A model generated the notes under the pieces. The model worked only from the letters and a program-made list of their open reading frames with translations. It searched no databases and had not been told where the DNA came from. 64,000 bases of DNA, taken from positions 2,728,001 through 2,792,000 of the forward strand of contig AP026545.1 in the NCBI GenBank assembly GCA_026075535.2, written 5' to 3'. The stretch's first letter is position 1. Each line of letters begins with the position of its first letter. Source of the stretch: Tricholoma matsutake (lineage: Eukaryota; Basidiomycota; Agaricomycetes; Agaricales; Tricholomataceae). Both the position numbers and the translations under genes were made by a program. This document shows, piece after piece, positions 3,220-60,253 of this stretch.

Positions 3220-3352
3220 CTTGGTTGAAGGGAGTGAAGGGGTGTGGTGGTGGTTGAAAAAAAGAAACCCTGGGAACCCATCAACATCAACATACCTGAT
3301 TTGGATTTGAACCTTCATGTGCCTTGTAGGCTTGGCACTAAGGGGGAAATAC

Positions 3353-3887
3353 TGTCAAGACTGATTCTTCCGACTGGACTTCTGATCGTTTTCCGCCCCC
3401 TTCCCAGCTGCCTTACATCACAGCCAACCTCCTATCAGCAGCACTGCCTAGAGGTGAAATTTCCTCATTTCCAATTAGGTGAAACAGTTTCAGGATTTGC
3501 CTCGGAAGCCGGTTTTCATAATAACCACAGCCTTGGAAACTCTGACCTTAGTATTTAAGCTAGCTACTTTCATTTTGTATCGCCAGTTTGTAAATCAACC
3601 AAGTCTCCCACTTAATCTTATCCTCTTTAAAACTCCAATTATGTTCTTAAGTCAATCTTGAACTCTTACTCATCCTCTCCAGAAATTCTCCGGACCTCTG
3701 GTCACCTTTCTTACCCTTGCCTTGAAATTAGGACACTTGATGAGGAGAAGGGCACAACTTCTTATAAGTTGAAGCCAAGTCCTTTCTGCTCCCCAATTGG
3801 TACAACACATCAAGTAAACCCTGCCCCGGAATTCCATAGGATTCCCTGTCTTACTTGATCCATCCTCTACAACGTTTAGTAATAACA
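3353..3887 (+). repeat. 3' LTR of family D copy A
   Basis: Starts TGTCAAG directly after the purine-rich GGGGGAAATAC, as in the complete D element. A block at 3724-3790 (GAAATTAGGACAC ... AAGCCAAGTCCTTTC) is shared with both D LTRs. The 3' boundary is my estimate from the TAATAACA end, by analogy with TTCTTAACA in D; the rest is strongly diverged, and no target duplication can be checked because the 5' LTR is absent. Confidence 0.55.
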
Positions 3888-22314: not shown

Positions 22315-22601
22315 GATGAGATGCAAACATCTTTTTCTATCAAATATCATGAAAAATAACAGTAAAAAATGCAGGGGTACTTTTTGATGACATATTGCAG
22401 GAAAACCTGTGAGAAGATGCAACATCTTTTTCAGCAATTTCCTATCAAATATAATGAAAAATATCAATATCCGCGAATAACCACGGGTAACCCGCAAAAA
22501 CCCGTGGTAACACCATACCCCTACCTGTGTGGGGACAGTGTTCATGGGTCTGGGTACAGGTATAAGAAAATATACCCGAGGGTTACCTGTGCCATGCCCT
22601 A
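22315..22601. mobile_element. hAT-like MITE, right part
   Basis: Continuation of 13806-14027 beyond the C1 insertion. Contains two ATGCAACATCTTTTTC-like units and several CCCGTGG/ACCACGGG and CATACCC motifs, and ends GTGCCATGCCCTA before ATCATCAT. Confidence 0.8.
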
Positions 22602-24449
22602 ATCATCATCATCATCATAATTGAAGCCATATGCATAGGGATTTGTGTGGCTCTGTGTGGTTGTAGGTGTTGATGATGAGGATGAGTTCGATAATTCAGA
22701 AGAAGATGGTGAGGGAGACATAGGTGGTGGTGTATGGTGCATTGCCATCGCAGCCTCAAGATTATGTTTAGCTGCTTCTTGAAAAAGGTCATCCAATTCT
22801 TCAGCAGAATCTGATACATCTGCCTCACTCCACTGCTCATCCTTTTCCACCTCTTTAACTTTTTGGCTTTCATCCTCATCCCATCCAATTCCCCAGAGTG
22901 CACAAAGATGATGCTGTAAAACACCCTCAAGCCAGTTATGCATAAAACCTAGTACAACATGTTTGACTGGATCCCAATATGGAAGATTATGCAGTGGAGT
23001 CCATCACACACCAGTTGTCTTTTGCAGAGCATTTTGACCAGCTTTGGTTGTCTGATGCAACCATGCCTCTGCCTGTGCTCACACCTGTGCACCATTATGG
23101 AGTTCCCAAGATTGAATATTGAGATCCTCTAGCTAATCACTGGTGCAGAGGCAGAAAGAACAGAACATTGTAGCACCATGTCCCAAAAAGCCAGTAGCCT
23201 TGCAACTTCCCTCAAGACCAGCAATCACAGGTGCAATTTTTGCTTTCACAGAGATGCCATCAGGATGTCTAGATGTTGGCAAATTTTGGCCTGGTGCAGC
23301 ACCATACTTGGCAACAGATTTAATAACAGGTTCAAGCAGACAAGAGATGGCTGTGGGGTCAGGAAGATGTGGAGGAGGTGTGAGACCAACAATAAATGTA
23401 TTCTCAAATTGATACCAAAGATGAAAAGGTAAGTTCAAGCAATAAAGCAGGATTGCTCCACAAGACACTTTTTTTGCCTATATATAAAATAAGCTGTGTC
23501 ATAGTCTATGCAGAATTTGTTAATAACTTACCAGCAATCTTATTGGTATAAGGATTGAACCAATCAATATAGATTCCAAATATTAAATGATAAGGAGACT
23601 GTAGAAAACCCTGCAAGTCATCCCAAGCAGGACTATCCTGGATATCATTCATAGTGGCACCAAAGGTAGCTGGTATATGGTTTCTGTGGTGGTTGAAAGC
23701 CTCATGAAGGCTGTCTTCAATGACCTTGGAAGATAAAAAGAACTGAAGCCAAGAATCAAAGGATTGTGTAGTGTATAGATGACATGGGACCCATTTAGGC
23801 CCATTTGGAGTATTCTGAGTTGTCCAGAGTTTTGTGTTACAAGATTGTGATCTTGGGGATGCCTTCCACTGACATTGCCAAGGAATAGGATGAGAAAAGA
23901 GGGAAAAGCACTTGGGGCAGCATGCTGTCCAAATGATTTCTGGCTCTGAGCAGTGAAGCCAATATGCTGTATGGACATCATGAGGAAGTTTGATGTTTGG
24001 AAGCTTGACATTGAGTCCAGATGATGAAAGAGCAACCTTGACAATAGAGAGAGTCACATAAATAATAAGTTGAAGTCCTTGTAGAATTTTGTTGGTGATA
24101 GAATGACTCACACCAGCTCTATTGTGGAGCCAGATGACAAGGAGGCAGATCATCTTTGTGATACGTACTGTAGAAAAGTTGATATCTGCATAGTTACTAT
24201 TAGTCTTGATCTAACAATAACAATGTAGCACTTACCTGTGGGAGAATTAGAAGCTCTAGAATGTTTTGGTGATGGGCTTGGGGATGATGATTGCCGCTTC
24301 CCCTTTGCCAGTTGTGAAACAGGCCATTTATCCTGTTTCTCATGCTTCAAACAGGTAGAACCATCAACATACTGTCCTGGCTGTTCAAGACCATTGATGA
24401 AGATGGTTTTTGTGCTACAAATTGTGCAGTTACATATGACTGGAGGCAT
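22602..24449 (-). pseudogene. 5' half of the transposase-like gene
   Basis: ATG at 24447-24449. N-terminal motif CNCTICSTK and GLEQPGQYVDGSTCLKHE, then a Ser/Pro-rich stretch. Intron 24168-24235 (GTAAGT...CTACAG). Next a helix-rich part, then SSGLNVKLPNIKLPHDV, CCPKCFSLFSHPIP, NIQDSPAWDD-like and FGIYIDWFNPYTNKIAG. Intron 23478-23531 (GTAAGT...TATAG) joins in phase to KKVSCGAILLYCLNLP, then HPDGISVKAKIAPVIAGLEG, CSFCLC, TGA, LPYWDPVKHVVLGFMHNWLEG, and an acidic tail ending in an Asp run at 22602. Likely a DNA transposase of a mushroom-specific type; three or more TGA stops. Terminal repeats of this transposon were not found. Confidence 0.7.
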
Positions 24450-25461: not shown

Positions 25462-26592
25462 TGATGATACTTGACCAGGAAACCCAAACAAAACCCACAA
25501 TAAGGGCTTGAATGGTATATAATGCTAGTTAGAGGAAGGTTGCAAGGTGGTACTAAATATCACCGCTGTTACCCAAAGCTATGAAAATGACTCTAGAGGG
25601 TGTCTGATGAAGTTCAATGAGGTTCGAGAGTATTCAAAGTGCTACAAAGGTGTTCGAGAGAAGTTCAATAAAGATTGAACATGTACAAAGTGCTGCGACG
25701 ATGTTCGAGGGAAGTTCAATGAAATTCAGGAGTGTACGAAGAGGTGCGATGATGTTCAAAGAAGTTCGAAGAGGTGCAAGGATGTTCAAAGAAGTTCGAA
25801 GGGCTTTATAGAAGATGAGGATGTTTTCGACAATGGCTGAGGATAGACTATAGGGATGTAGAAAGGCATCAAGAGGGGATAGACAATATGCGATAGTTTT
25901 GAGAAGCTAGTACGAGGAGTTCAAGGAAATTTGGTGTAAAACACTGAACTTCAAGACTAAGTCAAGACACTTGGACTCAAGAGAATGGCTCTTAAATCAG
26001 ATGATTGGTGTGAGAGGACAATGTATTCTGTTCTTCTAAGTAGCTAGTACAAGGCTATATATGTTTGGGAGAAGTGATACTAAAAAGGAAATAAAACATG
26101 AGGAATACATGAGGCAAGATATAAAACAATAGAGAATCTTTGAAAATCATAGAATAAATGAAAGAAGATGAGAAGGGAAATGTATAGAATCATGATTTAT
26201 CATGGGTACCTGTCCCCATTGATCCAATATATCATCAAGATGTCAAAGTGCCACAATCGCATCCTAAAATCCCATTGTTGTGTCTCCTTGTGTCCAGTGG
26301 TGCTCAATATGCAATGCACTAACTCTTACAAGGTGTGCTGCATGTATCTGAAGGGCAGTGCAATAGGTGTATGGCGGCCGAAGGCATTCAAAGTGCTGCA
26401 AAGTTATTTGAAGTCATTCAAAGTTGTTCGAGATCGTTCAAAGCCATTCGAGATCGTTCAAAATTGTTCAAAATTGTTTGAAGTAGTTTCGGAGTGGTGT
26501 TGTGGGGTTCATAGGGGTTGGGAGCATGCATGTTGATGTGTCGATGCCTCTGGAGATGTTCCCAGAGCTTAGAGCGCACAGTGGACCTATCA
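25462..26592 (-). repeat. 3' LTR of E
   Basis: 1131 bp. Rich in TTCGAA/TTCAAA-type words: three 30-bp units (GAGGTGYGATGATGTTYRAAG-like) at about 25740-25805 and a run of GTTCGAGATCGTTCAAAG units at 26395-26485. Differences from the 5' LTR are mostly CG against TG or CA. A purine tract (GTGAGGGGGAGGA) precedes it on the element strand. Confidence 0.88.
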
Positions 26593-26740
26593 TCCTCCCC
26601 CTCACTGAAATCCTGACTGTCCCAGTCAGCCGATTGGAGTCACGTGCGACCTGCATGATCATGTTGAAATTGTAAACAAAACTCAAAAAACTTCTCGTTC
26701 TGCTTTGTCACCTCTTAAACCTTTGACACTATATCTCATC

Positions 26741-28023
26741 ATGTCTCTTCTCGCCGAACTCAACACCGAAGTCCTCAAATATGCCAAATCGATGCCCAAT
26801 TGTGGTGTTGCTGAAGACCTCGACTTTGAAGTGTGGGGGAAAGGTTTTTGTGAGAAGATGGTAAGTTTCTGATTCCCATTTCATATTTGGATTCTAATAT
26901 GATATGTTCAGGTGGAATACGACGAACTGGGGGACAATTTGGGTGAAGAGCATGACTTGACTAGGCAACAGGTCATCAAAGAGGTTTTTGAGCTGTTCAA
27001 ACTGATGGCTCGATGCGAATGGCTTTTGTGGGGTGGGGACTTCTTGTTTGCAGATCTGAGTGAGCAGGTAGAGCGAGAGCAAAGGGAAGATGAAGCAAGA
27101 TGAGTTCGGGAGGAGGAGGAGGCTCACAGGGTGGAGGAAGATGCGAAGAAGGCAAAGATCGAGGCTTGGAGGGGGGCATTAGGAGACGCTCGAAATGCAG
27201 CTCTTGCTGCATTTTGTGCTAAAACTTTGTCAAAGGAGGAACTACAGCAATGAAACATGGAGCTCACAGTGGAAGTGCAAGCGATCGAGAAGCTAGAGGC
27301 TGGAGAGGAGGACGAGGAAGAAGATTTGGGAGGGTTGCCAATAATCAGGATTGGGAAGCGGAAGGCAGTGGAGATTGAGGGAGGCGAGGATGAGGAGGAC
27401 AAGGTAGAGAGCAAGTGGAGGAGGTTCACTGAGGGCAGACTTCTCAACTTCGAAGACCCAGTCAGTTTTTTTGTTTGGCTTCAATGTTTTTTCTGATTGC
27501 TAACAATGTCGTAGTGTGATCGATGTGCTAGGATGATATCCCAGCCATCATGCATTGTCAAGGAGGGAGCCCCAAAGTGCACAAAGTGCACTCAGGCAGC
27601 ACAGGGGTGCTACTGAGAAGGGGTCTTGAGGCAGGGACTTTACAAAGGCAAAGCGGGAAGATTTGGGGTTGCAGAACCAGATTTGCACCCAAAACCAGGT
27701 ATGAAACTTATTCAATATAATTTTGTAGTGTATGCTAACCTATTTTTGGATCGAAAGTGCCTTGGATTCGTGTATTAGGCCCCATCGCTGACATCGAACT
27801 GGTCACAGGCCCTTCAAGACCATTGAAAGAGAAAAAGAGGTTGTCAAAGGGAAAGGCAAAGGCAAAAATGAAAGTATCAGGTGGTTTTGAAGAGAGTGAG
27901 GATGTCGATGAGGAAGTCGTGACTTGTCATCGATTCCTGGCGATGAGGTTGGCGGAGTTGAAGGTCGAGATGGAGGTCTTGTGTAGGCAGATAGAAGTGG
28001 TGGAGGAGATGTTGGAAGAGTAG
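26741..28023 (+). pseudogene. Antisense intron-containing gene of element E: coiled coil plus Cys cluster
   Basis: Opposite strand to E's pol, between integrase and 3' LTR. Exons 26741-26860, 26912-27460, 27515-27698 and 27758-28023, joined in phase by three GT...AG introns of 51, 54 and 59 bp. Start MSLLAELNTEVLKYAKSM. Exon 2 is a charged helix (EQVEREQREDEAR, REEEEAHRVEEDAKKAK) then acidic and basic stretches. Exon 3 opens with CDRCARM, C, then KCTKCTQAAQGCY: C-x2-C-x7-C ... C-x2-C-x6-C, resembling but not identical to Zn2Cys6 clusters. Exon 4 has a Lys-rich run (KGKAKAKMK) and a final helix. Three in-frame TGAs (27101, 27252 and 27614 approximately) make this copy dead. Function unknown; a DNA-binding or Gag-like role is conjecture. 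Confidence 0.7.
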
Positions 28024-28390
28024 AAGATTTTTGTTGTTCTTTCTGTTTTATAATTTTGATTTTTTTGTGAGTCGCGATAAGAAAAGTAAGAAAGAAAAGA
28101 AAGAAGAAAGAGAAAAAAAGGAATAAGGGAAAGGCTCAGTAGATCATCATGGCCGAAAAACCCTTTTGGAGTTTGCGCGACCACGCTATAAATATCGCGA
28201 CTTGTATTGTACACTAAAACAAATCAAGGTCATAGGTAAGTGATCATGAACAAAGAGAAAGGGATAATTATTTGTCTTTGAAGTCCGGAAGGTCTTTGGG
28301 AATATCTTTGTTGATGTTTGAAGTGTTCCAAAGTTTTTCGAGACGTTTGGAGTCGATATCAAGGAAGTTCAGCGGCAGGGGAATTGATTT

Positions 28391-29868
28391 TCATGCAAAA
28401 TAGGGCAGGAGCCAGAAGGCTGCGACCAGTCGATGAAATACTGATCCATCGAGTTCACAGATGATGTAGGCTCCTCCATAGTTTCGATCAATGACGATGA
28501 GGGGTCCTAAATATCGAGGTCGCATCTTGTGATTGAGAGATTTCTCGATTTGCGTGTTGCGAAGTAGGACCAGGTCGCCTTTTTCAAAGTCATAGTCATG
28601 CATTGTTTGTTTGTGATTGAGTTTGAAACATTTTGCAGCTTCGAGTCGAGCAGTATAGACTTTCGAATAAGGTCGGATGATCGTTTCTGTAGTGCTATTG
28701 CTCTTCGAGCGATGAGATTGGTTGTTGATAAGATAGAATCGGGAGGGGGTTGCAAATATGTTGCTTTGGAGATGTCGAGTGGGATTAGGGGATGTGATCC
28801 TGTAATTGTGAAGTAAGGAGAGCAACCCATGCGTCTACGAACTGTAACTTGTTCTGCCCAAAACACTGAGTGTGCTCCAGCTGACTATTTGCTCTGGTCT
28901 CCATCGACTGCTTTGAATAACAATTGTCAAATATCAAAGTGAGCTTGTTCAACAATTCTGTTTGCACAAGAGTTGTAGCCGCTAATTCGAATGTGGTTAA
29001 TATGATATCGTTTTGCAAGGTACTCCAATGCTGCGATGAATGCTGATCCATTATTGCTCACGATTTCATATAGTGAACCCCATCTACAAATGATATCTTC
29101 AAAGATCCAGTCCCTGAGGGTTGTGGCATTTTCTCGTCAAAGGTTTCGCCACTCAGGATAAGTCGTTAGTGAACATCAACCTTGTACGATATACTTGAAT
29201 CCACTCGAGGGAGGCATTTGCATGGTATCGATGTAGACTTTGCCGAATAAAGGTGCGGGTGTGGCGATGGTAGGTGAGATAAGGAGATTTCAAGTTTGTT
29301 GTACCTGGCACAGGTGGCAAGTGCAAATATACCATGCGATGTCTGCTTTCATGTTAGGCCACCAGAATCGTAGGGAAATAATGGCTTTCGTCACAAAGAC
29401 CATTTTGTGTCCAATATCATTGTGAGCTGCACAAATAATTTCAAGATGATGTTTGGGAATTGTGATGATTTCATGAGCTCCATGCGAGTCCTTCCTCCAA
29501 AGTTTACTGCAATCTAAGAAGAATTTGGTGCAATATCAAATGAAGGTAGCATATTTGGAATCTGATAAATCTGGAGGTCGTACCAAATCCTCTCACCATT
29601 TTCAAACACAAATTAATCTTTCATCTTCCTTTTTCACATTGTTTATTTGTGGGACATTGTCATAGGTCAGATCCTCCCCCTTACTGAGATCTGAGGAGAG
29701 GGAGAGTGTCAAAACTCAATAGGAAGTGAAGGGTCGAGTTGTAATGGGATTGATTTGGTGTACAAAACCATGAAGATGGTCAATCCAGTGTCTGAAATTG
29801 TTTTTGCTATCGAACTGGTCATCTTTATCTTGTGGAGGATGTCTCGAAAGTCCATCTGGACCATGATG
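28391..29868 (-). pseudogene. Element E: end of RNase H, and integrase
   Basis: Continues from 38093 across C2. After GPDGLSRH (end of RNase H) comes the integrase: zinc part HHLEIICAAHNDIGHK...CTCHLCQ (about 29315-29440), core with VYIDTMQMPP (Asp 1), IVSNNGSAF where the second catalytic Asp should be (Asp changed to Asn), and RIVEQAH (Glu), then [17 protein letters not shown] and the C-terminal domain with [19 protein letters not shown] and ending LPYFA at 28391. No chromodomain seen. Several TGA/TAG stops and at least one frameshift (about 28600-28800). Confidence 0.85.
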
Positions 29869-30627
29869 TGTTAAGGGCAAAGCCTCAACCACTCGATCTA
29901 GTCAATGTTGTTGATGAGGTGCTTCCTCGACAAGTCGTTTGGCACTAGTCTTACTCGGAGCGTCTGATGTAAGAGAGATAGTGCACTCTAGCAGGCCTTC
30001 TGCGTAGAGTCGTTCAGGTTCATGCACTAAGGGGCTTCCTTAGTGGTTTCGAGTAAGTTCGCGAGTTCACAAGTTAAGGCTGTAGATTGCCTAGATCTAA
30101 ACTAAGGACATCCCTACTACAAATTGCAGTACTTATACTACGAGGGAGGTCCTTATTGTCCAATCGGAAAGATAGATGCATATCAAGTAAGAATAGAAAC
30201 AATAGGCCTCATGCCTTGCATGAGGTGTCCGATGTCACAGAGTGCTGCGGCACAGCATGTCAGGAAACAATAAGAGATAAGCCTCATGCCTAGCATGAGG
30301 CATCTGATGTCATGGATCCAATGTCAAGGATCCAATGTCAAGGACATGCTGCGGCACAGCATGTCGATCGTGAGAGTCCGACGTCACGGACCTCATGTCA
30401 AGAAGCTGTTGTATCACAGCATGTGTGGGAGTGGGTTCGGGTGCATGGAGTCACCATGCGTCAAGGGTGCCTTCCATGGGAAGGGGATCGAATGCATACA
30501 GTCGGCATGCATTGTGTGTGTGTCTGGTGCCAAGGACATGCTCTAGGCATGAATCAAGGGGTGCCTCCTGTCTGGAGAGGATCGTTGGGTGCGTCGGGTT
30601 CCATGAGTTACAAGGAAAATTGTAACA
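29869..30627 (-). repeat. 3' LTR of C2
   Basis: 759 bp, TGTTACAATTTTCC...CCTTAACA on the element strand, with the CCTCATGC..GCATGAGG hairpins at about 30207-30300. Confidence 0.92.
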
Positions 30628-30996
30628 TTACCCCCTCGCTATTGTCGAAAGTTCCACACTTTGACCTAAATCTTCATCTCTCCTTCGTGGTCTGATCAGG
30701 CGTGGTCTGGATATGTGGGTAGGTCGGGGTCGAGGGGTACGATGGAGGAATAATTCATGTCCGAACTTGGACCATGATCGGGTTCTTCTGGTTCGTGCTG
30801 CTCTAGGTAGCGGTGTCAAGGAGTCAGTAGTATTGTTGAAAGGGGGGTGTTGCAGGATGGCAAATTCAACACCTGTAATCGGGGGTTTGGGTTCTTTTCG
30901 GAAGATGGCGTAGAGGCAGAATGCGAAGGTTAGGGCTGCCGCTGCAGCCAGGGTCGTGCCAACGATGATGGTGAGGATCGTAATCCCTGTGAGCAT
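30628..30996 (-). CDS. C2 ORF4: small single-pass membrane protein next to the 3' LTR
   Basis: 122 codons, open, starting MLTGITILTIIVG. Predicted as one transmembrane helix at residues about 4-32, then PPFNNTTDS and an Arg-rich tail. Terminal ARG-stop is encoded by the purine tract that should prime plus-strand synthesis, so the gene runs to the LTR edge. About 12 residue differences from the C1 copy, none a stop, although gag and pol of both copies carry many. The neighbouring ORF3 ends 39 bp upstream. Could be an env-position membrane factor or a remnant of a captured gene. Role unknown. Confidence 0.72.
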   Translation of the reverse strand: MLTGITILTIIVGTTLAAAAALTFAFCLYAIFRKEPKPPITGVEFAILQHPPFNNTTDSLTPLPRAARTRRTRSWSKFGHELFLHRTPRPRPTHISRPRLIRPRRRDEDLGQSVELSTIARG

Positions 30997-31035
30997 GGGT
31001 CTGTCTTGTCATGCCATCATCTTGAGCTCTGCCTT

Positions 31036-31761
31036 TTAAATCCTTCCATATGGCTCCCCTGTCATGTTTCCCATCGCATCGTCATCAAAATCATTGTATC
31101 CAGAGTTAAAGAAGAGCCGCTGTCTGTGTTCGGCTTCTCTTTGATCAGTCTCTCGATCTTTCCGAGGTTTCTCTGGGCAGTTCATCCTATAGTGTCCGGG
31201 GCCTCGCTGTTTGCAATACTTGCAAACGTATCGTTGGCAAATCAGGCGGAAGTGGCCTATCTGTTGGCAGATGAAACATCTAGCATGTCTCATGTGTAGG
31301 GGAGACCAAGGCGGTTGGGTGGTCTTCGGTTCAGGTTCAGGGGTGGTCAGATCAATTATTTCGGGTGCCCTAGGCACAATCTTCGGGTTCTTCATAGAAC
31401 AGGAGGAGCCTCCAGAGGGAGCTCGTCGTTTGTCTCTGTTGCTCTGCTCGCTGAATGGTGAGAGCGAGGTCGGTGGTCGTCTGTGTCGACCTAAAGGGGT
31501 GTGAGGTCTCTCCTCAGCTGTTCTCAGTCTGTCTGACTGCGATGCAATCATTTCCTGGATCGTTTGCTCGATCCCCAGGGTGTCTGCATCGTTCATTGCT
31601 TCTTCTAGATTTCGTTCCATCTGTTCAATAGTGCTCGCATAGTAGAAGCACATCCTGGCTAGATGGTATTTCGGTGGATCGTGGGCGAGGTGAACGTGAA
31701 GGGCGTCAGCGTTCAATCAGTTTCGTAGGTATTCTCGGGTAAATCGTCGTTCAGCAGGCAT
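31036..31761 (-). CDS. C2 ORF3: double zinc-knuckle protein downstream of pol
   Basis: From ATG 31759-31761 (MPAERRFTREYLRN) 241 codons with one TGA at codon 15 (context suggests Trp originally; C1 has the same stop); after it, 226 codons are open. Features by residue: helix with Leu/Glu about 45-75; Arg/Pro/Ser-rich middle; EIIDLTTPEPEP at about 134-145, which looks like a SUMO-interaction motif followed by acidic residues; CFICQQIGHFRLIC (C-x2-C-x4-H-x4-C) at about 162-175; CKYCKQRGPGHYRMNC (C-x2-C-x6-H-x4-C) at about 180-195. It starts 48 bp after the chromodomain stop, on the same strand as pol. Resembles a nucleocapsid-type RNA binder but Gag has its own knuckle. Function unknown. Confidence 0.65.
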
Positions 31762-31809
31762 ATTGCAGAGTGTTGTTGTGGGAAGAGAGGGGGGGTTTTT
31801 GGGTTTCCA

Positions 31810-34800
31810 TCAGAGGTGGTACCTCTTCTTATATGCACTCAGGATCTTGGGGGCATTCTTTAGGTTTGATTCAGGTTCCCATGTGTTTTCGGATGTCGGG
31901 TAGTCAACCCATTTCATGAGGTAATGGCGTGTCTTGCCATGCTTTTTGTGTGTGATGATCGCTTCCACCTCGTATTCGTTCTCTCCTTCCACGAGTTTGG
32001 GTGGTGGAGTCAGGAAGTTTCGTCCATGAGTGTCATTCTCATGGTATCGCATGAGTAAAGCCGCATGGAATACCGGGTGGATCTTCCATCCCGGTGGCAG
32101 TTTCAATCGGTATGTCGTTCTCAACAAGGCGTCTTCAATCACGAAGGGCCCTTCTCATTTTGGCGCCAGTTTTCTCGATGGGTAGCCAATCTTCAGGTTC
32201 TTGGAGTCAAGCCATACTCGTTCTCCAACCTTGAACGGTTTGTATCGCCCTTTCGTTCAGGCAGCCATAGCCTGTCTGGCTAGTTTGTGTGCAGCAAGAG
32301 CTTCCCTTCTCGCAGAGAGAAGTTCTTGGATTCTCTGTTTGGCGGCCGGCACGTTCGTTTTTTCATAAGGGGTGGGGATAGCGCGTGGTTGATATCCCAT
32401 CATCAAGTAAAACGGCGAGTGTTTTACTGCGGAGTGCGTCTTCTGGTTGTGCGCGAATTCTGCCATTGGGAGATAACACTCCCAATCTTTGGGTTTGTTC
32501 GAACAGAACATGCGGAGGTAAACCTCTAGCTCTTGGTTTACTCACTCCGTTTCTCCGTCAGTCTGGGGGTGATAGGCAGTGCTCATGGATAGCTTAATCC
32601 CGAGCAATCGTCCGAGTTCTTGGAAGAGTTTGGATGCGAATCGAGGGTCTCTGTCTGAGATGATTCTTCCGGGGAGTCCAAATCTGGTGTACACATGGCG
32701 CATGTAAAGGTCTGCAGCGCCAAGTGCATTGATCGTCTTCATGCAAGGGATAAAAATTACCCCCTTTGTAAGACCATGGTCTACCACAACCATGATTGAG
32801 TCAAATCCGTTTATCACGGGCAAGTCTGTGATAAAATCTGTCGTTACCAGCTCGAATGGTCTGCTGGCATCAGATGATATCGGTGTCGGCGGTGGGGTCA
32901 TCGGGTGTGTATTCACTTTCATTTGCTGGCACTTTGCGCAGCCTTCGATGTACTTCTTGATGAAGTTGGCCATTCCTGGCCACCAGTAGTCTCGTCGGAT
33001 CAGTTTGATCATCTGCCATTGTCCAGGGTGTCCTGTCGTGATGCTATCATGGTATTGTTGTATGATCGCTCGGCGGAGGGTTTCGTCCTGTGGCACGTAG
33101 CATCTGTCTTTGGAAAAGAGCAGGCCATCTTCGAATTTCCAGTCCTCCAATGCAGACTTGATTGGGGGAGTTCCATTGTTTTTCAGGGCTTGTAAAGCGT
33201 CATTTACGAGGTTGTCCTTCATTATTGCTGAGACCAGGGCTCCCTGGAGCTCAGTGTTGATCGTTTTGACGAACAGTTCATCAGTGAGGATGGTCTTGTC
33301 CTTGTTATCGGTGTCTTCTTTGGCTATGTGATCTGCTCTCCTCGATAGGGCATCAGATTGTACCATCTGTGATCCTGGTACATGTTGTAGCTTCAGGTCG
33401 AATTGTGACAGGTAGATGGCCCATCTAGCCTGTCGTTGGTTTAGTTTCTGTGGCTGACAGAAGTACATCAGGTTCTTGTGATCGGATAATACCATCCCAG
33501 GGAATGGTGTCCCCTGTAGGTAGTGTCTCCATGTTTCTAGCGCTCGGATCACTCCCAATAGTTCTCGGTCGTATATCTCATAATTTCTTTCCACTTCGTT
33601 GAAAGAATGCGAGATGTATCTGCATGGGTGCCAGTCTCCGTTGGCGTCCTGTTGTCTGAGTACTGCACCTGTCGCAAATTTTGAGGCATCAGATTCTACC
33701 ACAAATGGTTTTGTTGCGTCTGGCATCAGCAGTACTGGGGTTTCGTTGAATTTCCTCTTTAGCGCATCAAACGACTGCTGGCAGTCATTTGTCCATTCGA
33801 ATTTCTGGTTCTTCTTTGTCAAGTGGTTCAGTGGTCTGGCCAGATCCGTGAAGTGTCTGATGAATCGTCGATAGAAGTTTCCGAATCCTAGGAAGGATCT
33901 TACGTCCTTCACTGTCCTTGGCGTGGGCCAGTCCTTGATCCCAGCCAGTTTCGTGTTGTCCATTGCAAGTTCATTGGGTCTGACGATCATGCCCAAGAAC
34001 TCGACTTCCTGTACACTGAATCTGCACTTCTCTATTTTCAGGTAGAGATCGCATTGTTGTAGTCGTTCGAGGACCCTTTTGGTCCTTATCCGGTGTTCTT
34101 CTTCCGTCTTCGAGAAGATCAGGATGTCGTCCATATAGATGACGAGCCATCCTTCATCTAGCATATCTCAGAAGAGATCGTTCATCATCACCTGGAATGT
34201 TGCCGGTGAGTTGCACAGCCCAAAGAACATCACCATTGGCTTGAATAGCGCTTGGTTAGTCTTGAATGCTGCCTTCCACTCGTCTCCTTTCTTTATCCAT
34301 ACGTTATGATATCCCCATCGAATATCAAGTTTCTTGAAAAATCTTGCTCCCTTCAGCTTGTCCAAGAGGTCTCTGATCAGTGGCAGGGGGTAGTTGTTCC
34401 GGATCGTTCCTTCGTTCAGATAGCAATAGTCTTGGCAAGGTTGTAGAGCGTCGGAGTCCTTCTTCGACACGAAGAAGACTGGGGATGCCATGGGTGATTT
34501 CGATGGTCAGATGTATCCTTTCTCCAGGTTTTCATCAAGAAACTCATTGAGTTTCTCTTGTTCTTTCGGTGTCAATGGGTAGACTTTGCAATCTTTTGGT
34601 ACAAAGCCTTCCTTCAAGTCAATTGCATGATCCCACGGTCTTGATTCCAGGAATCATTCAGATGCGGCCTTTTTGAATACCTGTCTGTATTTCTGGTATT
34701 CTGGTGGCAGCAAGTTGTCCAGGGTCTGTTGGCTAGTCTCCTTTCCCTCCTCTTGTTCATGTGCCAGTCGTTGAGATATGGATGTCTTTGCTCTGATCCA

Positions 34801-36201
34801 TATGTCAGAGTTGAGTAGGTATCATGGGGAGCCCTTGCCTTTCACGAGTCTGCCAATGGTGTTTGTCTTTCAGATGTATTTGTGTGTCGGCTCTCGATGT
34901 TCTTCCGTCAGGGGCAGTTCTATGGCTGGTCCAAATAGGCTGATGACTGGTTCGCCTTGTACATATGCAATCAGTATTGAGCCATCCTCAATCATATCTC
35001 GTTCGGGGGTCAGTTCCATCGCTCGTATTTCCATGCTGGTATCTGCCAGTAGTTCTTCATCGAGTACCTCTTCGACCTTTACCTGCGGGGGGGTCTCCCT
35101 GGGCATAGGTACTTCAGCGTTGATAGTACCGTGATCTGGAGTCCTATAATTGTGGGTCGGGGTAGTCTGTTGTCAAGGGTAGTTTATCCTGTCTCATAGC
35201 GTCGTCTTCACATTCCTTTTGCCAGTGCTTCCCTCCCCTGTGGAGGTTAGTAATTCCTTCATCCTTTGCACAATTCATTGTGCCCTGTCGCATTCTTTGT
35301 TTTTGCCCTTTTCCAGTTGTTTCTTCTTCTGGTTTTCTCAGGTCTTGGCAACAGCACATCGTGCTGCTTCAAGGCCTCTGGCTTGTTTAGGGGTGTTGCT
35401 GCTCCTGCTCTTTGCAACAGCTATCTGGACAGAATTTAGTTCTTTTGCTTTCCTCTCTGAAAGCCTTTCTTTTGTTTTTGCCACGGCCAATTGGGCTCAG
35501 ACAAGGCTCCTCTCTTTTTCTTTGGCGAGCCTTTCTCTCGTCTTTGCCACGGCTAGTCGTGCTTGGGCAAGGTTTCTCTCCTTCTCTTCAGAGAGTCTGT
35601 TTCTTGTTTTGGCCACGATGTGTCGAATTTGTGCCATTCTGTCATTTGGCGCCTCCCTTTCGGCGTCTACCCTAGGAAGGTTTAGGGTGTTCGGGAGGGC
35701 CTGTTTGGCTCTTCTTGTCTTTTCCAGGATCCGCTGGATTTGAGCCCATCGTTCTTCATCTCGGAACTCAAAGGTTCCCTTCTTCCAATCGATGATCAGG
35801 TTTATCTCCCGCAGCCACAGCAGGCCCAGGATTACCAATTCTTTGCCTAGTCCGGCGACTAGGTATTCTATCAGGTAGCTCCTTCCGTTGATGTGGAGTC
35901 TTCCTTTCATGCATCTGGTGATCGTTCCCTGCTTGTTCAGGGTCCCGTCTATGTTTGTGGCCCAGATGGTGCAGCCTAAGGGATATGTTCTGATCCCTTC
36001 TCGTTTGACAAAGTTCGAGTCGATAAAGACTCCTCCTGCTCCAGAGTCGAGGAGCGCGTTCATTGCGACGTCTTTCCCATTGTCTGACTCAGCTACCCGA
36101 ATAGACAGGCGCATAGATTGTCTATTCATGGTAGCTAAGAGTACAGACCCTAGGGAGACTACAGCGGTGACTGGCGTCGTATCAGGCCGCTGTTCTAAAA
36201 A
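31810..36201 (-). pseudogene. C2 pol
   Basis: Minus-strand order: protease ALLDSGAGGVFIDS (about 36050), repeat linker (35150-35640), RT start near 34490 and YMDDILIFS (about 34135), RNase H with LSDHKNLMYF (about 33480), integrase zinc domain (HDSITTGHPGQW ... CAKCQQ), core TTDFITDLP and SDRDPRFAS, chromodomain YEVEAIITHKKHGKTRHYL (about 31920-31980) ending 31810. The longest open stretch is 540 codons (32542-34164) from RT through the integrase core, ending at a TGA in TDGETE*VNQ. Other stops lie at about 34166, 34505, 34660 and 35110. Confidence 0.87.
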
Positions 36202-37361
36202 CCTGATTCCTCCATGAGGTTGAGGGCTCGTTCCTTTTCTTCTTTGTCTAGTTCATCCAGCATTGTGCGGATCTTCTGGTAGGTGTCCACCCCAGTCTTC
36301 TTCTGGGTGAAGCGGTTTCGGTAGGGAGGAGGCGCTGACCCCATCTGAGTGGGGTTCTTTCCATCCCTGTGGTCGGACGATCTGTGTCCCGGTTGGTGGC
36401 AGATGAAACACAATCCCTTTCGGAGGTGTTCCACGCATTCTTGGTTCATCAGTCGGTTGATGTCGAGAGAGGGCTGTCCTTTCTTCGTTGTTTCTTTTGT
36501 CATCTGGTTTTGCCTGGTCTTCCCCAGGATTGCCATGGCCCATTTCCATTGGCCTTCATATTTCAAAGCTGCCTTTATCCAGCCTTCGAGAGTGTTGGGC
36601 ACTGTCTCCATTGTGTGTACCCTCTTCAGTAATTCGGGATGCAGTCCGTCCATGAAGTACTCGATCATGGCTGCATCTTCTGTGATTCCCATCCTGTCTT
36701 TCAGGATGCGGAAGTTCGCCACATATTCTTTGAGGTTCCCTGAACCTTGTTTGAGATTCTTAATTTCTGTCTTTGCCGTTCCGGCATAGTCGATCGGTGA
36801 GAAGGCCTCTAGGACCTTCTGTCGGAAGTCTGCATACTCACCGAGTCCCTCGGACTGGTGTTGGTTGACAAATGCCTGTGCCCAGGCAGCTGCTGTCCCT
36901 CCATTCATGAAGGACAGCGTGAAGATGATCTTCTTGTTGTTTGTGTCATAGACCTGATCATTGATTCACAAGTACAGGTCTATCTCCTGCAGGAACTTGG
37001 CAGTCTTGGTCCGCTCTCCTGAGAAGTCTGTGGGTGATCAGATTCAAATGTCTTTCATGGACATCATTGGTGCGGTTGCAGGTTCGGACATCTCGTTATA
37101 GAGGTCATCGGTTTTGTCTGTTAAGAAGCAGGTGGATGTTTCGGATGGGGGTGCATGCGGTTGGTCAAAGCCTTCGTCAGTGAGGAAATCTCCTCGTTGT
37201 CTGTCGGTTGATCCGTAGAACCAACACTGTGCTGGGGTCGAGTAACGGACTAGTCTTCCATTGTATCTGTACCAAGATGAACCTGGCTGTGGTTCTGCTT
37301 CTCTTGGTGGTCGGTCTGGGGTTTGTCTAGACCCAGGTCACTGTGGTGTGTATCGAGATGT
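36195..37361 (-). pseudogene. C2 gag
   Basis: Open for 237 codons from 36908 to the TAG at 36195, including AWAQAFVNQ, YFMDGLHPELLKRV and the motif CFICHQPGHRSSDH, a C-x2-C-x4-H-x4-H variant of the usual CCHC knuckle. Upstream, TGA stops and loss of the start codon (ACA where C1 has ATG) break the N-terminus. Pol follows in the -1 frame across the T5 run at 36197-36201. Confidence 0.8.
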
Positions 37362-37393
37362 ATTGCCTACACCTAGGTAGGTGGGCTAGCAGA

Positions 37394-37405
37394 TAGTTTA
37401 GATCT
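37394..37405 (-). promoter_or_regulatory. C2 candidate self-priming site
   Basis: AGATCTAAACTA on the element strand, 2 nt from the LTR; complementary to 37632-37643 inside the 5' LTR. Identical to C1. Confidence 0.6.
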
Positions 37406-37407
37406 TA

Positions 37408-38092
37408 TGTTAAGGGTGAAGCCTCAACCACTCAATCTAGTCAATGTTGTTGACGAGGTGCTTCCTCGACAAGTCGTTCAGCACTAGTCTTACTCGGAGC
37501 GTCCGACGTAAGAGAGATAGTGCACTCTAGCAGGCCTTCTGCATAGAGTCGTTCAGGTTCACGCACTAAGGGGCTTCCTTAGTGGTTTCGAGTAAGTTCG
37601 CGAGTTCACAAGTTAAGGCTGTAGATTGCCTAGATCTAAACTAAGGACATCCCTACTATGAATTGCAGTACTTATACTACGAGGGAGGTCCTTATCATCC
37701 AATCGGAAAGATAGATGCATATCAAGTAAGAATAGAAACAATAGGCCTCATGCCTTGCATGAGGTGTCCGATGTCACAGAGTGCTGCAGCGCAGCATGTC
37801 AGGAAACAATAAGAGATAAGCCTCATGCCTAGCATGAGGCATCCGATGTCATGGACCTCATGTCAGGGGGCTGTCGTATCACAGCATGTGTGGGAGTGGG
37901 TTCGGGTGCATGGAGTCACCATGCATCAAGGGTGCCTTCCACAGGAAGGGGATCGAATGGATACAGTCGGCATGCGTCGTGTGTGTGTCTGGTGCCAAGG
38001 ACATGCCCTAGGCATGAATCAAGGGGTGCCTCCTGTCTGGAGGGGATCGTCGGATGCATCGGGTTCCATGAGTTACAAGGAAAATTGTAACA
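37408..38092 (-). repeat. 5' LTR of C2
   Basis: 685 bp; about 74 bp shorter than its partner because the segment with the ATCCAATGTCAAGG units and one CATGCTGC hairpin (between about 37855 and 37865) is deleted. Confidence 0.9.
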
Positions 38093-40374: not shown

Positions 40375-43300
40375 TCCGCAGCCCTCAGGATACAGCCATT
40401 GGGATTGGGGGTTGCATTGACCTTACCCATTTGGCTGCCTATGTTTGTCTCAACATGTCTGCTCTTTCCGACCCTGACTCCCTAACCATTCTTTTGACCT
40501 TTCCTGACTCTTACACCCCTTTCCAAACCCTTATTGACTCTGGCTCCTCCCACTGCTTCCTTGACTCCTCTTTTGTGTTGGATAACCAACTCAGCATGGA
40601 ATCCATTAACCCAATTGGTCTACAACTCTTTGATGGATCTTGCAACTCCACCATAACTCAGGTCATCAAACTTCCGGTCACCTTCCCTGCCAGTGAAGTG
40701 TTCAATTTGTCATTCTATGTAACCTCGCTCAACTCTTCCTGTTCTGCCATACTCGGTCATAACTGGCTGAAGCAATACAATCTGTTGATTGACTGGTCTT
40801 CAAGCCAACTCGCTTTCCACTCTGCAGATCATAGAGGTCCAGTACCCCTGACATCACCTTTGTCCCCAAACCTTCCGGTAGAAATCCTTGACTCCTCCGC
40901 ACTTTCCAAACCCCTCATTCCTCCTAAGTTTATACCTCCCAACATCTCTTTCATCAATGCTGCCACTTATGTGCATGCTAGCAAACTTCCTGGGGCAGTA
41001 GCTTTTCAGATGACCTTCACTCCAGAAGGGTTATCCGCCCGCTCCACCCAATCTGCTAACTCATCTGACATTTTCGATATTCTGCCCAAGTATCACAAAT
41101 TTGCTGATGTCTTTAATAAGACTAAAGCAGATACCCTTCCTCTGCACTGGTCTTACGACCTCAAGATAGAGACAGAAGACAATACTCCTCTGCCTCCAGG
41201 CTGCATGTATTCTCTCTCCCCCTCAGAATTAGAAGCCTTACAAGTCTTTATTGATGAAAACATCTGCTCAGGTTTCATCTGCCCATCCAAGTCCCTGCAT
41301 GGCACTCCGATTCTCTTCATCAAGAAGAAGGACGGTAGCCTCTGACTTTGTGTCGACTACTGAGGACTTAACCATCTTACGAAGAAGGACCACTACCCAC
41401 TTCTGCTCATTTCCGACCTCCTCAACTCTCCCTGCAAAGCCCGCTTATTCACCAAGATAGACTTGCAGCACGCTTATCACCTAGTCCACATCACTGATGG
41501 TGATGAGTGGAAAACCACTTTCTGCACCCGCTATGGATCCTTCAAGTGGTTGGTGGTTCCCTTTGGACTCACTAATGCACCCGCAGCTTTCCTGCGGTTT
41601 ATGAACAACATCTTCAGTGACATGCTGGATGTTTGTGTCATCATGTACCTTGACGACATCCTAATCTACTCCAATGACAAGTCCCAGCACAGGGCTCACA
41701 TCAAAGAAGTCCTCCGCCATCTCCAGAAGAATGGACTTGATGCCTCTCCACAGAAATGTGAGTTGCACAAAGACACCATTGAATATCTGGGTTTCATCTT
41801 GTCACTGGATGGACTGCAGATGTCCAAGGATAAAGTCAAACCGTGCTCGACTGGCCCAAGCCTAGGAAAGTTAAGGATATACAATCCTTCTTAGGCTTTT
41901 GCAACTTTTACTGCTGCTTCATTAATGGCTATTCAGACATTGTCATTCCACTCACCCACTTGACATGGAAATCTGCACCCTGGGACTTCAACAAGAAGTG
42001 CCGCGATGCTTTTGAAAAGCTCAAACAAGAATTCACTCACGCCCCCATCTTAACTCAATGGGTACCCAACTCACAGATGGTACTCGAAACCGACACTTCT
42101 GACTATGCCCTAGCAGCTATCCCTTCAGTTTACACTGTGGATGGAGAAATCCATCTGGTCACTTTTCATTCCCACTCCTTTAATCCCGCTGAACTAAATT
42201 ACAACATCCATGATAAGGAACTCTTGGCCATTTTCGAAGCCTTCCAGCACTGGTGGCAGTATTTCAAGGGTTCCGCAAACCTGGTTGATGTGGTCACTGA
42301 CCACAAAAATCTTGAGTACTTCAGCACTACTAAGTTGCTCACCTGTTGCCAGGCCCGTTGGTTTGAATACCTTTCCCAGTTCAATCTCATCATCTGCTTC
42401 TGCCCCAGGAAATTAGGGGCCAAGCCAGACGCACTCACAAGATGCTGGGATGTCTACCGCAAAGGGGGAAATAGCGACTTCACCTCCATAAACCCAACCA
42501 ACTTCCAACCTGTATTCACACAGGAACAATTCACCTCCTCCCTCCATGCCACCTATCTCGCCACACCCATCATCCAACAAGCCATAATTATGGATGTTGA
42601 GAAACTACATAACGACATCCACACCCCTTGACCCCCTATCATCCACACATCTTCTGACACCTGTTGACCCCAACTGGACTATAGACAAGGCAGGTCTTTT
42701 CCGCCACTTTGACTGGATTTATGTTCTGGACATTGCGGACCTCCGCCTCAAGGTCCTTCAGTACAAACACGATCATATCCTCTCTGGCCACTTTGGACAA
42801 AACAAAACCCAGCAGCTTGTCCATTGGGAATATGTCTGGCCAAACCTCCGCACCTTTGTGCAGGAATTCTGCAAATCCTATACCACTTGCAAATGATCCA
42901 AATCGCCTTGACACAAGCCCTATGTGTTCCTAAAGCAACTTCCAGTCCCAGAACGACCTTGGAACTCAATATCCATGGATTTCATTGAACAACTACCCAA
43001 CTCCAACGGCCACACAGCTATCCTGGTCATCATTGACCACCTGACCAAACAAGGCATCTTCATCCCAACTGTCAGCAAAATCACAGCCCAAGAATTAGCC
43101 AACCCGTTCATCCTCCACGTCTTCTCCAAGCATGGTGTCCTGTCGCATGTCACTTGCGACTGGGGATCTGAGTTCATCTCCCATTTCTTCTGCTCCCTTG
43201 GAGAAGTGCTCGACATGCAGATCCACTTCACTTCTGGTTATCACCCGCAAAGTGATGGTCAGACAGAATGACTTAATCAGACCTTGGAGCAGTACCTCTG

Positions 43301-45109: not shown

Positions 45110-45267
45110 GGAGACTGCTGGGGGGGGACATTTTTGATAGGTGATGGGAGTAAGAAACAATGTGAAAATATTTTCAACCAATTGCCGCATTTGGAAATTC
45201 AACCAACTTCCTTATTCAGACTCAAGCACTCAGGTGCCTCATAGGCTTGGCACTAAGGGGGAAATAC

Positions 45268-46817
45268 TGTCAAGAACCATTCCTTGCCCAATCAGAACCC
45301 GCATCCATCCGACCCTTTTCTGCACATTGAACCCGACATTTGTCTACTCCTCCCAATTTCATTTCTGGCTGCCTTGCACTGCCACACTGCTGTGTAGTGT
45401 TTAAAGGTCCAGTCTGTAGGACCAAAAAAAAGACCAAAACTGACCTGAACTGGACCGATTAGGACCAGACCAGTGGTCTATTTATGGACCAGTCTTTTTC
45501 AGTCCAGTTGCTGGTCTTTCGTTTTGAAAAATATAGTAGGACCAATGAAAAACCAGTTAAAACTGGTTGCAACCGGTCTCTTGCTCCAACGTGTGTTAGA
45601 CCTTACTCCCACACATATTTCCTTTATTTTCGGTCCCTGGATCATCAAGAACGGTCAAGAATTGGTTGAGATATGACCAAAAACATTTTTGTACGAGTAT
45701 TTTGTTGTATCAGAACAACTTTGATTGCATTGCTTATTACCTGAGCTATAATTTTTTTTGTACAGCTATATAGTATCATAAAAGTAACAACAACACACCT
45801 AATTATCTGTACCATGGGATTTTATTTATACAACAGCCCAAATGAGTGCAACTACAAATTACAAATTACAAACTACAAACCGCAACTTGAATGCATGTGC
45901 TTTTGGTTTTGGCCATATCTCAGTCAAATCTTGACGGAATTGCTTAAATGTTGGATCGGTCTACGTAGCATTACAATCTCTATCCATTAATATAATATAT
46001 GAGGTGATGGTCATATTTGTTGAGATACATATGGGTTATTTGGCACAATAAATTTTACAACAAAAAACCAGTCTGAACCAGTCTTTTTTCGGTCCATGGA
46101 CCAATTAGGACCGGTCCTAAAGGGTCCAGTTGCGGTCCTCCAATATCTAGATTGGTCCTAGACCGGTTGCGGTTGCTGGTTGCCCCATTTGGAAGTCAAA
46201 AACTGGACTGGACTGGACCTTTAAACACTACTGCTGTGCACTAGGCCACCTTGTACAGCACCCATGGCTGCCTTCCCAAGGCTGCTGTCTCTATTGCAAA
46301 TTTGACTACAGATTCCTGTGCAGCTCCTGCTAGGTAATTTATCTACGCAGTCAAGACACTGCTGCAGTCTTTGTTTCTGTTCCGCATTTATTCCAGACTA
46401 CAGTATTTAAGCTTAGTTAGTTTTGCCTTGTATTCCTCAGTTCATATATTGACATAGACTTGACTTTAACCTGCCAATCTAAACCTCCTTCTACTCCAAC
46501 CTCAGTTCTCTAAGAGTCTGAACTCCATTTGACTCGACCTCTAGTCTCCCTCTGAAGTTCTAACCTCATCTGAACTTAACCTAAGTCCCTCTGTACTCCT
46601 TCCCATGTTTACCTGCACTTTCCCGCTCCTACCTCCAAACCTTTGACTTGAAATTAGGACACCAGATGAGGTGAAGGGTGCAGCTTCTTACAAGCTGAAG
46701 CCAAGTCCTTTCCATTTCCCCTCCCACAGAATCTGCAACAACCCAACAACCTTCCGCTATCGTCACCCACAGGGTCTGATCAGATTCTGACGCATCTTCT
46801 AGGATCAGTTTTTAACA
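45268..46817 (+). repeat. 3' LTR of D, interrupted by a hAT-like MITE
   Basis: LTR sequence 45268-45394 and 46231-46817 flanks the MITE. Without it the LTR equals the 5' LTR in length. Ends TTTTTAACA before GGTTT. Confidence 0.92.
45395..46230. mobile_element. 836-bp hAT-like MITE with 20-bp perfect TIRs
   Basis: Ends TAGTGTTTAAAGGTCCAGTC and its exact inverse; 8-bp target duplication CTGCTGTG at 45387-45394 and 46231-46238; the empty site is visible in the 5' LTR at about 38353. TAGTG fits the YARNG start and 8-bp duplication of hAT elements. Interior is AT-rich with repeated ACCAGT/GGTCC/ACCGGTTGC words near both ends and no transposase. Confidence 0.9.
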
Positions 46818-59114: not shown

Positions 59115-60253
59115 TGATGATACTTGACCAGGAAACCCAAACCAAACCCACAATAAGGGCTCGAATGGTATAATGCTAGTTAGAGGAAGGTTGCAAGGTG
59201 GTACTAAATATCACCGCTGTTACCCAAGGCTATGAAAACAACTCTAGAGGGTGTCTGATGAAGTTTGATGAGGTTTGAGAGTATTTGAAGCGCTACGAAG
59301 GTGTTCGAGAGAAGTTCCATAAAGATCGAACATGTACAAAGTGCTGCGACAATGTTCAAGGGAAGTTCAATGAAATTCAGGAGTGTACAAAGAGGTGTGA
59401 TGATGTTTGAAGAAGTTCAAAGAGGTGTGATGATGTTTGAAGAAGTTCAAAGAGGTGTGAGGATGTTCAAAGAAGTTCAAAGGGCTTTATAGAAGACAAG
59501 GACACTTTCGACAATGGCTGAGGATAGACTATAGGGATGTAGAAAGGCATCAAGAGGGGATAGACGATATGCAATAGTTTCGAGAAGCTAGTATGAGGAG
59601 TTTGAGGAAATTCGGCGTAAAACACTGAACTTCGAGACTAAGTCAAGACACTTGGACTCAAGAGAATGGCTCTTAAATCAGATGATTGGTGTGAGAGAAC
59701 AATGTATTCTGTTCTTCTAAGTAGCTAGTACAAGGCTATATATGTTTGGGAGAAGTGATACTAAAAAGGAAATAAAACATGAGGAATACATGAGGCAAGA
59801 TATAAAACAATAGAGAATCTCTGCAAACCATAGAATAAATGAAAGAAGATGAGAAGGGAAATGTATATAGTCATGATTTATCATGGGTACCTGTCCCCAT
59901 TGATCCAATATATCATCAAGATGTCAAAGTGCCACAATCACGTCCTAAAATCCCATTGTTGTGTCTCCTCGTGTCTGGTGGTGCTTGATGTGCAATGCAC
60001 TAACTCTTACAAGGTGTGCTGCATGTATCCGAAGGGTGGTGCGATAGGTGTATGGTGGCCGAAGGTGTTCAAAGTGCTGCAAAGTTGTTCAAAGTTGTTC
60101 AAAGTTGTTCGAGATTGTTCAAAATCATTCAAAATCATTCAAAGTAGTTTCAGAGCGGTGTTGTGGGGTTCATAAGGGTTGGGAGTGTGCGTGTTGATGT
60201 GTCAATGCCTCTGGAGACATTCCCAGAGCTTAGAGCACACAGTGGACCTATCA
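59115..60253 (-). repeat. 5' LTR of E
   Basis: 1139 bp partner of 25462-26592, with the same 30-bp units at about 59390-59480. Followed on the outside by ACAG. Confidence 0.88.

Follow-up and report, generated by a model that had tools for sequence, protein, structure and literature searches.

How can a retroelement hold on to introns? Retroelements are expected to lose them when they are copied via spliced RNA, and yet one element lineage in the mushroom Tricholoma matsutake keeps three, because these introns face the other way. They belong to a gene that a gypsy-type element, here termed element E, carries in antisense, with the end of pol on one side and the 3' LTR on the other. The copy described lies in the window, i.e., the 64,000-nucleotide stretch of T. 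matsutake chromosome 8 that was analyzed as a whole and to which all coordinates refer. The best explanation, to which we assign a probability of about 0.7, is that we are dealing with an old and large gypsy-type lineage equipped with a spliced antisense accessory gene, the protein product of which would be a nuclear regulator of the element.

The original prediction for this locus proposed four exons, joined in phase at 26860/26912, 27460/27515 and 27698/27758 across GT...AG introns of 51, 54 and 59 bp, and this model was borne out. The gene resides on the plus strand. Exon 1 (26741..26860) starts with ATG, comprises 40 codons and is matched in 11 of 11 divergent loci described below; it is followed by intron 1 (26861..26911, 51 bp, GTAAGT...CAG). 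Exon 2 (26912..27460) specifies a charged long-helix region together with the basic patches, and intron 2 (27461..27514, 54 bp, GTCAGT...TAG) is located immediately 5' of the sequence for a six-cysteine cluster, C-x2-C-x8-C-x8-C-x2-C-x6-C, encoded by exon 3 (27515..27698). Intron 3 (27699..27757, 59 bp, GTATGA...AAG) precedes exon 4 (27758..28023), which encodes a basic stretch and a charged C-terminal end and terminates with the stop codon at 28021-28023; matches to exons 3 and 4 extend to this end in several divergent loci. The window copy contains three in-frame TGA stops, at codons 104 and 154 in exon 2 and at codon 257 in exon 3, and is therefore a pseudogene, a point absent from the original prediction.

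The 3' LTR of element E (3' in pol sense; 25462..26592, minus strand) has a length of about 1.13 kb and was delimited from repeats and sequence, its ends being set by eye to within 3 bp on either side; a second, solo copy of the LTR is found at about 59115-60253. Directly inside the 3' LTR lies the polypurine tract (26593..26602, minus strand), read from the sequence as purine-rich in pol sense and present as the same block in 13 of 13 loci displayed. It is separated from the antisense gene by a 17-bp palindrome with the arms CTGACTG and CAGTCAG around TCC (CTGACTGTCCCAGTCAG; 26613..26629). The palindrome pattern is present in 38 of 41 loci, with perfect arms in 35 of these 38, and in two divergent loci it has changed on both sides, from T/A to C/G, with pairing kept. 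Judged by its sequence, it could equally be a site bound by protein, a hairpin formed in the genomic RNA or part of the polypurine tract. A conserved non-coding block (AAGGCTCAGTA.ATCATCATGGC..CTATAATGCGATATCGCGACTTG; 28136..28236), defined by alignment of 13 loci, separates the convergent 3' ends, that is the antisense stop and the pol stop, and is strongly conserved, also in divergent subfamilies. The 3' part of pol with the integrase (28268..29840, minus strand; pol stop placed by eye) was recognized by its DNA match to other copies; it is broken in the window copy, where pol is truncated near 29870 by the LTR of another element. The predicted arrangement, with the gene opposite to pol and adjoining the 3' LTR, recurs throughout the copies that we aligned: LTR DNA was found on the expected side at 30 of 30 loci and pol-end DNA at 28 of 30. 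Two pieces of other copies gave Pfam matches, both on the minus strand: an open pol-end piece of one copy with Integrase_H2C2 (PF17921; 2e-14) and, in a different copy, a piece further upstream with an aspartyl protease (PF13650; 2.4e-6). No Pfam family was obtained for a 237-residue integrase piece of E, for the piece from the reverse transcriptase (RT) side or for the window piece 28391-28834. With the RT-side and 237-residue integrase pieces matching no Pfam family, we take E only provisionally to be gypsy-type; the label derives from the LTR and polypurine anatomy and from a weak match (24% identity, 6e-9) between its RNase H and that of a second element in the window, element D.

The deduced protein has the features ascribed to it originally, a charged helix and a cysteine cluster; in detail, these are a long predicted helix, basic patches and six cysteines in the spacing C2C8C8C2C6C. 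The patches KRK, KRRR and KR..F were identified by reading and resemble signals for nuclear import. An AlphaFold model of the database homologue P0009, calculated with 19 relatives, comprises helices 11-37, 42-111 and 115-136, in which ten-residue blocks reach pLDDT values of 76-99 (86-99 in helix 42-111). For the model overall, the mean pLDDT is 64.9 and the pTM is 0.38, and the part outside the helices, which includes the cysteine cluster, lies below 60. The profile search that had been suggested for this cluster did not yield a Pfam family assignment. Neither cluster nor helix produced anything above the curated cut-offs in Pfam, NCBIfam or PDB sequences, the best matches resembling coiled-coil noise, and a bZIP domain is absent among the Pfam matches. 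Fungal-type Zn(2)-Cys(6) clusters have the spacing C2C6C5-12C2C6-8C; the spacing in the E protein falls outside this pattern, and the protein has no match to PF00172 above the Pfam threshold. DNA binding is only suggested, because the cluster matches no Pfam family. Taken together, these features suggest a coiled-coil protein of the nucleus, the cysteine cluster of which would bind metal.

The following course of events would account for the persistence of the introns. Antisense RNA would start in or next to the 3' LTR and, once spliced, would be exported for translation; the sense genomic RNA would retain the introns as their reverse complement and pass them on to the next copy. As the splice signals exist only in antisense, the genomic RNA should keep the introns, which would thus survive reverse transcription. 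This escape from removal was part of the original prediction; it is sound in its logic and agrees with the finding of introns 1 and 2 at every one of the 41 loci read (30 + 6 + 5). The introns might also serve as a strand lock, because unspliced RNA cannot give the full protein. With less certainty, the protein, with its long coiled helix, basic patches and six cysteines, would act in the nucleus and regulate the element, the conserved palindrome next to the polypurine tract being a possible binding site; a role in transcription or silencing, as originally suggested, is a guess. A much bolder version holds that a gypsy lineage of mushrooms has long been using introns as a strand lock, that the six-cysteine protein arises from spliced nuclear antisense RNA only, binds the palindrome and toggles the element between a jumping state with sense expression and a quiet state with antisense expression, that it is an independent fungal counterpart of the retroviral protein HBZ and that the distant lineage of element D follows the same design. 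We regard this combination as improbable.

It is conceivable, if on balance rather doubtful, that the spliced antisense gene is real and that its protein serves retrotransposition, for example in nuclear carriage of the pre-integration complex, in chromatin tethering or in packaging, and not transcription. Basic patches, long helix and cysteine cluster fit such functions equally, the gene travels with the integrase lineage, and Vicient and Casacuberta discuss such roles for plant antisense ORFs. A protein of the particle or of integration would, however, be produced more simply in sense together with gag-pol, whereas antisense control separates its expression from theirs. This is an argument and not a datum.

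Both the regulator view and the retrotransposition view presuppose that the antisense strand encodes a protein. In the T. matsutake assembly (161,040,721 bases, 13 contigs), at least 45 stretches matched the E gene (best 40 of 680 candidates scored), and the window copy and the next 29 best loci were aligned (n = 30). With CpG-like contexts set aside, the copies differed pairwise (transitions and transversions combined) at rates of 0.030, 0.025 and 0.083 at codon positions 1, 2 and 3 compared with 0.093 in the introns, all these rates being derived from pairs that are not independent of each other; exon 3 alone has little codon periodicity, as judged from transversions. Relative to the window copy, the length was divisible by three for 47 of 70 indels in the exons, for 1 of 59 in the introns and for 48 of 177 in the flanks, the last figure being inflated by 42 cases of one 9-base difference. 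The reading frame is kept to the same final stop in 18 of the 30 copies, and one copy is fully open (373 codons). Stops number 3.7 per copy in the gene frame, the final stop included, as opposed to averages of 6.9-21.0 in the five other frames. Of the 81 in-frame stops, 70 are TGA at codons that read CGA in another copy, so most of the damage represents CpG decay of once open frames. Decay of the E copies in general is mostly CpG to TpG/CpA, a pattern that suggests methylation-linked mutation. Failure of the exons to be conserved in other copies had been named beforehand as an observation that would speak against the gene; in fact, both coding signature and splice sites are kept across the 30 aligned copies. 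At the sequence level, we have demonstrated a protein-coding antisense gene that experienced past purifying selection, has three introns readable only in the antisense direction and is kept across divergent subfamilies. Antisense RNAs of Ty1 act as RNA (PMC12786077), and by analogy the antisense RNA of E could act through double-stranded RNA, silencing or interference with the ORF as a by-product. Codon-position bias, frame-keeping indels, the retention of the splice sites and a similarity between the proteins that extends to identities as low as about 31% render this very unlikely.

In order to reach beyond close copies, the genome was also searched with two of the database homologues, which gave at least 137 and at least 150 matched stretches. 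At the six divergent loci that were read, the integrase lies on the opposite strand and the layout is the same (6/6). Compared with E, exon 2 is 36-48% identical at these loci and the integrase piece 73-84%, so the accessory protein evolves much faster than the integrase. Introns 1 and 2 are present with GT..AG at the same places in 6 of 6, as is intron 3 by reading (6/6). Five further loci were chosen via their integrase (72-76% identical) and had no gene match near them among the matches listed. All five nevertheless carry an antisense gene in the same place, opposite to the integrase, with identities to E of 46-58% for exon 1, 31-54% over parts of exon 2 and 36-69% for the best pieces of exons 3-4. 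Introns 1 and 2 have GT..AG in 5 of 5, and the donor of intron 3 was found by pattern search in one only. The generality of the gene in the lineage rests on these five loci, because the other 36 of the 41 were found via the gene itself and are uninformative on elements without it. The same five loci bear on the idea that the element picked up an intron-containing host gene in antisense orientation, which has since been hitch-hiking without use to it. The multi-intron structure does resemble that of an ordinary mushroom gene, and capture in antisense would have kept the introns. On the other hand, selection is old, the gene is in place at 5 of 5 integrase-picked loci despite deep divergence, relatives exist in databases, and no single-copy host homologue was identified among the at least 137 and at least 150 matches, although one would have been hard to tell apart in such a crowd, element context having been read at the named loci only. 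Useless hitch-hiking is most improbable; an old capture followed by use by the element is fully compatible with the explanation that we favor, a spliced accessory gene for a nuclear regulator.

The introns themselves are well preserved. GT..AG is kept in 30, 29 and 27 of the 30 aligned copies for introns 1, 2 and 3, the exceptions being a donor changed to GA in intron 2 of one copy and altered acceptors of intron 3 in three copies. A YTRAY branch-like motif is present within the 30 nt at the 3' end of these introns in 27, 29 and 29 of 30 copies, respectively. Short introns are easily found by eye, but the possibility that GT..AG pairs occur here by chance between pieces of a single ORF is negligible, given that donors, acceptors and branch-like motifs are kept at the same places and intron indels are so rarely multiples of three.

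Further relatives came from a profile search of a protein collection, which retrieved 27 homologues with 36-60% identity from sources tagged jgi, ena and lgn, most of which we take to be soil metagenomes. The majority span mainly exon 2 and, by their sequences, look like gene calls blind to introns: 23 of the 27, some of them near-duplicates, continue as V-S or V-H exactly at the donor of intron 2, and the boundary is not shown in P0007, P0010 and P0021. Five homologues have tails of at least 60 residues, and all five can encode the six cysteines in the right spacing after 51-56 nt, a fit that was reached in 0 of 300 shuffles for each and in 0 of 20000 for two. In four of the five, AG precedes the placement; P0009 lacks the acceptor AG, its frame continues across intron 2, and this sequence may have ceased to be an intron there. 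The shorter tails of P0013, P0017, P0018 and P0027 accommodate three cysteines after 58 nt, with AG in front of them. For the short tails of P0008 and P0015 a 35-nt placement scored best, and the remaining homologues are too short to tell. On the 7.7-kb contig of P0007 we recognized by eye an LTR end, a polypurine tract, MSLLAGLN..., a 51-nt intron 1 ending with Q (CAG) and then exon 2, and thus the same anatomy as in element E. P0020 joins exon 2 to exon 3 without an intron at the predicted junction (...LLNFEGL to CDRC...) and may derive from spliced RNA or from a copy devoid of the intron. About 25 codons of exon 2 are, by eye, missing from it as well, and we give it little weight as it may be a rearranged copy and not an mRNA. 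Among the IMG/VR contigs searched with the E profile, none was confirmed.

A similar gene is present in element D, the pol of which encodes a Tf2-1-like SH3 domain and RVT_1. Its antisense gene (about 45129-44131, minus strand; with a stop in the window copy) specifies a charged helix and a cysteine cluster and contains one intron of 50 bp (44735-44686, minus strand) that splits the first CxxC and has GT..AG in 7 of 7 copies. Indels in its exons are multiples of three in 10 of 11 cases. For codon positions 1, 2 and 3, seven copies gave 0.101, 0.111 and 0.150 for all differences and 0.024, 0.017 and 0.014 for transversions, the latter without a third-position excess, in a computation that ended one or two bases off the stop. 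The gene appears real in outline from its sequence, and the codon-position rates are unconvincing. The cysteines of the D protein are spaced C2C6C9C2C6C, which fits the Zn(2)-Cys(6) spacing, and yet PF00172 gave only E = 4.1, on a fragment. E and D had been put forward as two unrelated families of the same design, and a check of homology between their proteins had been proposed. The design is indeed similar, with an antisense gene, intron, charged helix and cysteine cluster in each, and the pol genes are as distant as the RNase H comparison indicates; shared descent of the proteins did not emerge. Alignment of the cysteine regions with hhalign (24 rows for E, six of the seven copies for D) gave a probability of 2.5% and a score of 15.8; higher scores were reached by 4 of 100 column shuffles and by at least 10 of 100 shuffles with fixed cysteines. 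A common family of the two antisense proteins is therefore not supported, there being no detectable homology of the cysteine regions and a score within the shuffle range. No homologue of the D protein was found in the protein collection at E <= 0.001 among 7993 candidates scored. What is observed is a similar design in two distant lineages of one genome.

Several other features of the window may be recorded here. Five stretches elsewhere in the window share 35-74% identity with the RNase H of element D. Two related gypsy elements at 1277-2539 and 41364-42628 are 73% identical in RT and 74% in RNase H and share a border motif (3295-3367 and 45210-45282). The element at about 29870-38081 has an ORF 3' of pol (31036-31716, minus strand) with two CCHC-like zinc knuckles, seen by eye, which from its sequence may be either an extra sense gene or a displaced nucleocapsid. 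Between two LTR elements, ORFs at 22583-24440 (minus strand) resemble what we take to be the remnant of a basidiomycete DNA transposase with introns.

Antisense accessory genes at the same place are already known from plants, from the fungal element Boty and from HTLV, which the original prediction did not mention. Plant LTR elements contain antisense additional ORFs of the aORF-3R type, as in Grande (gene23), RIRE2, Retand (TRP28) and PvRetro13 (PMC7264820; PMC11963269). Like these, the E gene is located between pol and the 3' LTR, in antisense, and occurs in many copies with coding conservation; the plant ORFs are found in most copies and in several species, and a nuclear role is suspected for them as it is for E (PMC7264820; PMC11963269). 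The hosts differ, mushroom versus plant, and the word intron is not used in the accessible text of the Retand article (PMC11963269). E shares no family such as TRP28 with them, because no Pfam family was matched. In fungi, brtn of Boty/BcGypsy1 from Botrytis cinerea is an antisense additional gene in a gypsy element (Zhao 2011, as mentioned in PMC8365987 and PMC7264820) and in this respect resembles the E gene; its host is an ascomycete. A review from 2020 calls for looking for antisense and spliced transcripts, and among the open-access articles listed in our searches none described an antisense gene with several introns from an LTR lineage of fungi. With element E, a mushroom lineage joins the plants and retroviruses from which the phenomenon has mainly been described. 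The element lends itself to a clean test, set up by nature, of whether retroelement antisense genes make proteins with a job and, for studying transposon self-control in a repeat-filled mushroom genome, it provides a defined protein and a conserved candidate site.

The E protein and Zn(2)-Cys(6) proteins (PF00172) each have six cysteines in two groups. Among retroviruses, HBZ of HTLV-1 and APH-2 of HTLV-2 are made from a spliced antisense message that originates from the 3' LTR side, and the protein lowers sense transcription of its own virus (PMC3185765). The E protein has a six-cysteine cluster where HBZ has a bZIP domain, which is also lacking in APH-2; the start codon of spliced HBZ lies in the LTR, that of E about 150 bp inside, and unlike HBZ, E has three introns within the coding region (PMC3185765). 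By analogy, the E protein may be functionally comparable to HBZ and APH-2, although we put this forward with less confidence. Introns as such are not foreign to LTR elements: plant Ogre and EVADE hold them in sense, where they serve the elements' own subgenomic RNAs, and E resembles these as an LTR element with introns but has them in its antisense gene instead (PMC12786077). Seen against these systems, the E gene is a multi-intron, lineage-wide variant of the known antisense accessory genes.
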